A stretch of 64,000 nt of DNA from the NCBI RefSeq assembly GCF_901411515.1, contig NZ_CABDUX010000002.1:1426001-1490000 (forward strand). Direction: 5' to 3'. Position numbers and translations under genes: made by a program. The notes under the pieces are model-generated. The model made no database searches. It had not been told where the DNA came from and was given only the letters and a program-made list of their open reading frames with translations. The stretch's first letter is position 1. The number at the start of each line of letters is the position of its first letter. Shown piece by piece: positions 53,224 through 54,991 of the stretch. Origin of the DNA: Raoultibacter phocaeensis (GTDB taxonomy: Bacteria > Actinomycetota > Coriobacteriia > Coriobacteriales > Eggerthellaceae).

Positions 53224-54609
53224 TTACTGCACGCCTGGGATACTCGGGATGGTGGCAAATCCTACCTCGAGCTCTTCGTCGGTTGGGATGTGGTCGGTCA
53301 TCTCGCCTCGGTTGAACGCATCGTAGGCGAACATGTCGAAGTAGCCTGTGCCCGTGAGGCCGAACAGGATCGTCTTGGCCTCGCCCGTCTCGGCGCAGCG
53401 TTTCGCCTCTTCCATGGCCTGGAAGATGGCATGGGCGCTTTCCGGCGCAGGCAGGATGGTCTCAAGCCGTGCGAACTCGACTGCGGCGGCGAAGATGTCG
53501 GTCTGCTTGACGGCCACGGCATCGAGGAAGCCGTCCGCCTTGAGCTTCGAGACGATCGGACTCATACCGTGATAGCGAAGGCCGCCCGCATGGTCGGGAC
53601 TCGGCAGAAAGCCGCTGCCGAGCGTGTACATCTTGGCGAGCGGGCAGGTTTGGCCCGTGTCGGCGAAGTCGTAGGCGTAGCGCCCGCGCGTGAGCGAGGG
53701 GCAGCTTGCAGGTTCGACGGCGATGAACCGCGTATCGGGATGGACTCCCTTGATCTTGTCGCGCATGAACGGCGCGATGAGACCGCCGAGGTTCGAGCCG
53801 CCGCCCGCGCAGCCGATCACGATGTCGGGGTACTCTCCGAGCTCCTTGAACGCCTCGTACGATTCGAGGCCGATGACGCTTTGATGCAGCACCACCTGGT
53901 TGAGCACCGAACCGAGCGTGTAGCGCCCTTTGTTTTCGGGAATGTTGAGCGCGCGCTCGACCGCTTCGGAGATAGCCGTGCCGAGCGAGCCGCTCGAATC
54001 GGGGTTCTGGGAGAGCATCTTCTTGCCGATCTCGGTCGTATTCGACGGCGAGGGCGTGACGTTCGCGTTGAACGTTTCCATGACGCTGCGGCGAAACGGC
54101 TTCTGCTCGTAGGAGCACTTCACCATGAACACATCGAGGTTGAGGCCGAAATGGTCGGCCGCCTCGGCGAGCGCGGTGCCCCACTGCCCCGCCCCGGTCT
54201 CGGTTGTGATGCCGTCGAGATCCTGCGCTTTCGCGTAGTAGGCTTGCGCGATGGCGGAATTAAGCTTATGCGAGCCTGAAGTGTTGTTGCCCTCGAACTT
54301 GTAGTAGATCTTAGCAGGCGTGCCAAGGGCTTTTTCCAGGTTGTACGCACGGCACAACGGGGAGGGACGGTATATCTTGTACATCTCCTGGACCGGCTCG
54401 GGGATGTCGAAATACGCAGTCTCGTCGTCGAGCTCTTGCGCCACAAGCTCGTCACAGAAGACTGGAGCGATATCCTCAGGCTTCGCGATCGCGCCGTTCG
54501 TCAAGCGCATCGGCTCGGGCGGCTCGGGCATGTCGGCGCGCAGGTTGTACCACTGCGTCGGAATCTGATCTTCTTTGAGGTACAGACGATGCGGTACTGC
54601 TTGTTCCAT
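53224..54609 (-). CDS. trpB: TrpB2-type tryptophan synthase beta chain
   Basis: A 461-residue PLP enzyme joining indole and serine to make tryptophan. The length and the start RLYLKEDQIPTQWYNLRADMPEP are those of the TrpB2 class. The PLP Lys is in NNTSGSHKLNSAIAQ (about residue 114), the phosphate loop is GCAGGGSNLGG, and ETGAGQWGTAL carries the catalytic Glu. No trpA or other trp gene is beside it, so indole may come from outside the cell, a plausible trait in the gut. Expression is controlled by the attenuator just upstream. Confidence 0.95.
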   Translation of the reverse strand: MEQAVPHRLYLKEDQIPTQWYNLRADMPEPPEPMRLTNGAIAKPEDIAPVFCDELVAQELDDETAYFDIPEPVQEMYKIYRPSPLCRAYNLEKALGTPAKIYYKFEGNNTSGSHKLNSAIAQAYYAKAQDLDGITTETGAGQWGTALAEAADHFGLNLDVFMVKCSYEQKPFRRSVMETFNANVTPSPSNTTEIGKKMLSQNPDSSGSLGTAISEAVERALNIPENKGRYTLGSVLNQVVLHQSVIGLESYEAFKELGEYPDIVIGCAGGGSNLGGLIAPFMRDKIKGVHPDTRFIAVEPASCPSLTRGRYAYDFADTGQTCPLAKMYTLGSGFLPSPDHAGGLRYHGMSPIVSKLKADGFLDAVAVKQTDIFAAAVEFARLETILPAPESAHAIFQAMEEAKRCAETGEAKTILFGLTGTGYFDMFAYDAFNRGEMTDHIPTDEELEVGFATIPSIPGVQ

Positions 54610-54716: not shown

Positions 54717-54743
54717 AAAAAAGCTCCCGGATCACCGAGAGCT
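54717..54743 (-). terminator. trp attenuator terminator
   Basis: On the minus strand AGCTCTCGG pairs with CCGGGAGCT over nine bases (one G-U), TGAT loop, followed by TTTTTTG. It sits between the leader peptide and trpB, 107 bases before the trpB ATG, so readthrough is required for expression. Confidence 0.92.
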
Positions 54744-54770
54744 GTTCGTTTTGTATGTAAGCGAGAACAG
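54742..54770 (-). promoter_or_regulatory. trp antiterminator stem
   Basis: CTGTTC (plus-strand 54765-54770 read leftward) can pair with GAACAG (54742-54747). The second arm runs into the first arm of the terminator, so the two structures exclude each other, as needed for attenuation. Pairing strength was judged by eye only. Confidence 0.7.
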
Positions 54771-54788
54771 AAGCTTCGATAACCCGAA

Positions 54789-54875
54789 TTATTGCGTTCC
54801 GTTCCACCACCAAGCACCGTTCATCGACGCGCGTTGCGCGGTTGCGATGAGAGCGTTGTTCTTGATCGTGAACAT
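54789..54875 (-). CDS. trpL: trp leader peptide with three consecutive Trp codons
   Basis: A 28-codon frame from ATG 54875, with GAAAGG upstream, to TAA at 54789-54791. It encodes a peptide ending MNGAWWWNGTQ, with TGG TGG TGG at 54804-54812, four codons before the stop. A ribosome stalled there for lack of charged tRNA-Trp would leave the antiterminator free to form; a ribosome reaching the stop would favour the terminator. The peptide itself needs no function. Confidence 0.92.
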   Translation of the reverse strand: MFTIKNNALIATAQRASMNGAWWWNGTQ

Positions 54876-54902
54876 GCGAACCTTTCATTCGAGTTGCCGG
54901 TT

Positions 54903-54930
54903 AGTATAGCGCAGATGCCGAGAAACGCAA
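54903..54930 (-). promoter_or_regulatory. Promoter of the trpL-trpB unit
   Basis: On the minus strand TTGCGT and TATACT are 16 bases apart; the start of transcription would be about 20 bases before the leader peptide. Four of six bases match at -35 and five of six at -10. Confidence 0.7.
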
Positions 54931-54942
54931 GAGCGGCTGTGC

Positions 54943-54991
54943 GGAATATTCCCGTGGAATATTCCCTGGGAATTATTCCACGGGAATATAA
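54943..54991. promoter_or_regulatory. Array of GGAAT-ATTCC dyads upstream of the trp promoter
   Basis: GGAATATTCC occurs at 54943 and 54956, GGAATTATTCC at 54969 and a half site at 54983, 13-14 bases apart. The whole forms a 16-bp perfect inverted repeat (54946-54961 with 54974-54989) around TTCCCTGGGAAT. It ends 13 bases upstream of the -35, an activator- or repressor-type position. Confidence 0.65.

Follow-up and report, generated by a model that had tools for sequence, protein, structure and literature searches.

The window, a 64,000-nucleotide stretch of the Raoultibacter phocaeensis genome, carries a trpB2 gene that stands outside any trp operon, which raises the question of what such an isolated gene is for and how the cell decides when to express it. 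The first-pass annotation had proposed ribosome-mediated attenuation of the stand-alone gene and salvage of indole by the cell. We find that the Trp codon run, the placement of the leader stop, compensatory changes among relatives and the gene context all support such control. Very probably, the leader is a ribosome-mediated attenuator that responds to charged tRNA-Trp and has a single target, a stand-alone TrpB2, which most likely converts scavenged indole and (phospho)serine to tryptophan.

The trpB2 product passes the cut-offs of the NCBIfam models NF009057 and TIGR01415 (652 vs 366 bits and 546.5 vs 518.9 bits), but at 128 bits does not reach the cut-off of 392 bits of the ordinary-TrpB model TIGR00263. 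Its closest solved structures are the tryptophan synthase beta chains 6hul_B, 4qys_B and 6hte_B, far ahead of ordinary TrpB chains, and the GSHK-N region, which holds the PLP lysine, is conserved between it and these relatives. It is the sole TrpB homologue in its own genome (3.86 Mb, 99% complete). Family searches of this genome, on which the absence of pathway genes rests, gave no match to TrpA, TrpC (IGPS) or TrpE; the only match in the TrpE search, at C1:1224909, is an isochorismate synthase. We also considered tryptophanase as an internal source of indole, and the genome has no TIGR02617 match. The same pattern extends through the family, where 27 of the 30 genomes with both attenuator and trpB2 have no trpA and 29 have no IGPS. 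Two genomes keep trpA and IGPS (G135 and G136), and their trpB2 genes (L097 and L096) are leaderless. From its gene content the host appears unable to synthesize tryptophan de novo. Because the genome is without TrpA, IGPS, TrpE and a second TrpB, indole salvage is the best reading of trpB2, as had been proposed; gut neighbours may supply the indole. TrpB2 proteins have high affinity for indole (as discussed in PMC11917138), indole salvage through TrpB has been demonstrated in gut Bifidobacterium (PMC11085991), and the relative Eggerthella lenta ceases to grow in defined medium once tryptophan is left out (PMC10234575). Salvage is probably not the cell's sole source of tryptophan and is possibly secondary, since the genome also encodes a TrpP-like ECF S component (L212, C1:87087-87563) with a T-box in front that carries AAATGG in its specifier region.

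T-boxes also occur on trpB2 itself. In 22 family members a T-box motif lies 5' of trpB2 instead of the attenuator, and the Rfam model confirms it in those scanned; among clostridial relatives, 7 of the 10 scanned have a T-box before trpB2. In all six T-boxes inspected the specifier position reads UGG. A UGG T-box on the same gene is an independent indication that tRNA-Trp control of trpB2 is maintained. This bears on the possibility that the main job of TrpB2 is not indole salvage and that the enzyme instead consumes serine or phosphoserine, or uses some other indole-like acceptor, with the attenuator being real and Trp-specific all the same. Phyletic patterns had led to the proposal that TrpB2 acts as a serine deaminase (discussed in PMC1854888), and the presence of the TrpP-like importer would fit it. 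However, TrpB2_o enzymes are reported to have poor serine deaminase activity (PMC1854888), the gene is under Trp-responsive control in nearly all relatives, by attenuator or UGG T-box, and co-occurs with Trp transporters, which points to Trp supply, and IGPS is missing almost throughout the attenuator-bearing genomes. We consider this alternative improbable.

All the parts of the attenuator are present (Table 1). Every part is encoded on the minus strand of the window, a strand that the first-pass annotation left unstated when it listed the promoter, the 28-codon leader with its TGG run and the terminator followed by trpB.

Table 1 Features of the trpB2 locus, with positions in the window.
Feature	Position	Strand	Basis
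Sigma-70-type promoter TTGCGT-16-TATACT (TTGCGT 54930-54925; TATACT 54908-54903)	54903..54930	minus	sequence; -10 recurs in relatives
Segment 1, AACUCGAAU; putative RNA 5' end, immediately 5' of the Shine-Dalgarno sequence	54887..54895	minus	MFE fold and swap test
Leader-peptide Shine-Dalgarno sequence GAAAGG	54881..54886	minus	GAAAGG-like in most relatives
Leader peptide ORF MFTIKNNALIATAQRASMNGAWWWNGTQ, 28 codons + stop	ATG 54875 to TAA 54789	minus	Trp run kept in relatives
Sensor, Trp codons TGG TGG TGG	54804..54812	minus	WWW (WW in L004, L010, L012) across attenuators found
Segment 2, UCGGGUUAUCGA, antiterminator 5' strand	54776..54787	minus	directly 3' of leader stop
Antiterminator apex, incl. 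CTGTTC (54770-54765) / GAACAG (54747-54742)	54742..54770	minus	stalled-state fold
Segment 3, UCGGUGAUCCG, antiterminator 3' strand	54728..54738	minus	covariation
Intrinsic terminator AGCTCTCGG-TGAT-CCGGGAGCT + T6 (hairpin 54743-54722)	54717..54743	minus	terminator scan; covariation
trpB2, 461 aa (Shine-Dalgarno GAAAGG 54622-54617)	53224..54609	minus	NCBIfam match

A TATA[CG]T-like -10 element is found at a comparable distance in most relatives; a generic promoter scan scored the TTGCGT-16-TATACT promoter under its threshold. From the promoter we would place the RNA start at about 54896. The leader peptide ends in GAWWWNGTQ, and among relatives its N-terminal part diverges while the Trp run is conserved. 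The stop codon (54791-54789) lies just before the start of segment 2 at 54787, and the Trp codons lie 17-25 nt upstream of segment 2; assuming a ribosome footprint, this geometry would let a terminating ribosome cover segment 2 and a Trp-stalled one leave it free. Folding of the minus-strand leader RNA, which the first-pass annotation had suggested as a check, yields the alternative stems and is 3.6 sd better than dinucleotide shuffles; the plus strand of the same region has no structure better than shuffles. An Rfam scan of the window returned only a tRNA, with no T-box (RF00230) upstream of trpB2 and the element itself under the threshold of all Rfam families. A covariance model of the element has exactly one match in the 3.86 Mb of its own genome (E=2.2e-18). 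Just upstream of the promoter, at 54946-54989, is a near-perfect 21-nt inverted repeat, ATATTCCCGTGGAATATTCCC / GGAATTATTCCACGGGAATAT, which occurs once in the genome and is operator-like in appearance.

The same layout occurs 5' of trpB2 in 35 related loci of the class Coriobacteriia, giving 32 distinct attenuator sequences including that of the window. An intrinsic terminator with a T run is present in every one of the 32, and it covaries: 98.3% of cells are paired, and there are 27 two-sided changes where shuffles give 7.8. Segment 3 comprises the distal part of the terminator 5' arm, the loop and the first bases of the 3' arm, and its duplex with segment 2 is long and stable in 32 of 32 distinct sequences. 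In a swap test on 19 divergent sequences, segments 2 and 3 reached -18.8 kcal/mol with their own partners and -14.3 kcal/mol when partners were exchanged; not one of 20,000 permutations did as well as the own partners (p=5e-5). A registered alignment of the two segments agrees, with 89.8% of cells paired and two-sided changes in 8 of 12 pairs; here the register was picked by pairing, a bias that the swap test lacks, making it the cleaner of the two. The full antiterminator hairpin of the window, folded in the stalled state with the final terminator arm not yet made, comes to -20.9 kcal/mol. The antiterminator had been annotated as the CTGTTC/GAACAG stem, which indeed exists but is only the apex of the longer segment 2/segment 3 stem. 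As sole antiterminator we rejected it, since the number of its 6 pairs that form ranges from 0 to 6 among the aligned sequences and it is not conserved alone; its overlap with the terminator is just 2 nt. The proposed mutual exclusivity of antiterminator and terminator holds for the segment 2/3 stem, with the backing of covariation. Alignment of relatives thus bears out the annotated switch, with the Trp codons conserved, the leader stop adjoining segment 2 or lying past its start, compensatory changes in the stems and no loss of segment 2/3 pairing in the relatives examined.

Segment 1 pairs with segment 2 in the MFE fold, and this partner covaries with segment 2 across relatives; in the swap test, own partners reached -12.8 kcal/mol vs -10.0 for swapped ones (p=5e-5). 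We also tried as segment 1 the region adjoining the Trp codons and rejected it: this control region of the leader ORF pairs with segment 2 no better than chance (p=0.90). Two observations count against the attenuator reading: a few relatives (L106, L111) have a weak segment 1, and the Slackia-type trpB2 genes (L006, L096, L097) have no leader at all.

The covariation also bears on whether the leader might act mainly through translation or through Rho, with polar termination following leader translation, and not through a 2:3 / 3:4 switch. Rho-dependent leaders have been suggested for cys operons in other actinobacteria (PMC1262725), and the antiterminator here is one that we infer; however, a perfect intrinsic terminator with a T run in 32 of 32 sequences and a mutually exclusive stem that covaries make this route very improbable. 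That a short Trp-run ORF merely happens to lie near a terminator has a negligible chance of being true: short ORFs are common and there is a second WWW leader close by (53004-52918) that has no terminator, but conservation, covariation and the single genomic match refute it.

For the attenuator, we infer ribosome positions and the direction of the response as follows. When Trp-tRNA is plentiful, the ribosome would reach the leader stop and cover segment 2, allowing the terminator to form and keeping trpB2 off. With Trp-tRNA in short supply, it would stall on the UGG run ~20 nt short of segment 2, which could then capture segment 3, blocking the terminator and allowing trpB2 to be transcribed. 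In a leader that is not translated, segment 1 would sequester segment 2, and the terminator would form by default, again leaving trpB2 off.

The second WWW leader, MNGSAAAFADIVFCALLVGAWWWNRRQK, lies on the minus strand at 53004-52918, with its own TATACT-type promoter and GAAAGG Shine-Dalgarno sequence, and stops 3 nt short of the GTG (52914) that starts a gene for a FetA-like ABC ATPase. It has neither terminator nor segment 2, and its peptide is closer to the trpB2 leaders of other genera (e.g. G065) than to the window's own. It could be the remnant of a former trpB2 arrangement, or else a leader whose Trp codons influence how the transporter is translated. Between trpB2 and this leader, at 53200-53105, are two inverted copies of AGCACAGAGGGACGGTCCTTTTGTGCT, which look like a small repetitive hairpin element. 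In another genome (G068; L177 / L222) an attenuator with a leader ending in GAWWWNKKH (model match of 41.9 bits) lies directly 5' of a FetA-like gene; this genome has trpA and IGPS and is without trpB2, which was apparently lost with the attenuator left behind. We rejected a Trp leader as a general feature of FetAB-like genes, finding it only in the window, without a terminator, and in G068.

Across the class, the covariance model has matches in 169 of 398 genomes. Those inspected outside trpB2 are mostly before ECF operons whose S component matches Pfam TrpP or before NSS transporters; one of the two S components scanned falls just below the Pfam TrpP cut-off. Trp-run leaders in front of TrpP-like ECF and NSS transporter genes fit Trp specificity. 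Two weak matches, L179 (before a glutamine-synthetase-like ORF) and L180, have no proper leader, and we judge them to be false positives. WWW leaders precede NSS-type sodium-dependent transporters at L175 and L178 (G103 and G100), and in G103 a second match lies before a TrpP-like gene just downstream. In G069 (L088 / L149) the attenuator match is ~1.4 kb upstream of trpB2, there seems to be an insertion between leader and gene, and the trpA match is in pieces, with a stop inside it.

How the two sensors are distributed can be followed on a TrpB2 tree. The attenuator-bearing genes are not monophyletic (p-AU 3e-56) and at least four sensor changes are needed; attenuators are nested in T-box clades in Olsenella (L010/L012) and in G101 (L111). 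On this tree one sensor has given way to the other several times, with horizontal transfer of gene plus leader as an alternative to exchange in place. T-boxes scanned in the class score 44-90 bits (74 for that of L212) and would be missed at threshold, the Rfam gathering score being 93. From the two leaders, one cell appears to use both sensors, a T-box on import and the attenuator on salvage. We tentatively raise the idea, somewhat doubtful as it stands, of a Coriobacteriia Trp-acquisition regulon of TrpB2, a TrpP-type ECF importer and an NSS importer, in which T-box and attenuator, two unrelated tRNA-Trp sensors, are interchangeable and the host imports first and salvages only when ribosomes stall. 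That the T-box and the attenuator have different starvation thresholds is speculation.

The mechanism is ordinary, indeed classical; what is new is the target, the shifted segment 1 and the family-level exchange with T-boxes. The leader shares with E. coli trpL the logic of segments 1-4 and the tandem Trp codons. Whereas segment 1 of trpL overlaps its Trp codons, the partner of segment 2 here lies upstream of the Shine-Dalgarno sequence, away from the Trp codons. Among actinobacteria, trp leader-peptide attenuators have been described for the trp operons of Corynebacterium and Streptomyces and for S. avermitilis trpS2 (Seliverstov et al. 2005, PMC1262725, the Trp section of which is limited to these two genera). 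Like those, the present element has a run of 2-3 UGG codons, a GC-rich terminator with a T run and a mutually exclusive antiterminator in an actinobacterial host. In contrast to those trp operons or trpS, the target here is one trpB2 gene whose genome lacks the remaining pathway; segment 3 has the terminator loop at its centre, and segment 1, which covaries, lies in the 5' UTR before the Shine-Dalgarno sequence. Trp T-boxes (RF00230) have been noted in Dehalococcoides (Wels et al. 2008, PMC2494555), where they precede trpE and trpB-like genes; they too sense tRNA-Trp charging and have trpB2 as a target in the window's relatives and in Clostridia, but bind the tRNA directly with no leader peptide, unlike the window's trpB2 locus. 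Exchange of T-box and leader peptide is known at hisS (Naville and Gautheret 2010, PMC2965389) and in his operons (PMC9413887), where similarly two RNA sensors of one amino acid swap on orthologous genes; here, by comparison, the gene serves salvage, several exchanges fall in one family and class, and both kinds of sensor occur in one genome. In the open literature, with most subscription papers outside its coverage, our searches turned up no account of an attenuator, either on a stand-alone trpB2 or in Coriobacteriia.

The covariance model can be used to annotate leaders that Rfam misses. Since this one gene carries a T-box in some relatives and an attenuator in others, the group provides a natural experiment on the replacement of one tRNA sensor by another. 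Indole is an abundant gut signal and a toxin precursor, and these widespread gut actinobacteria, apparently without Trp synthesis of their own, seem able to feed it into protein synthesis under Trp starvation.
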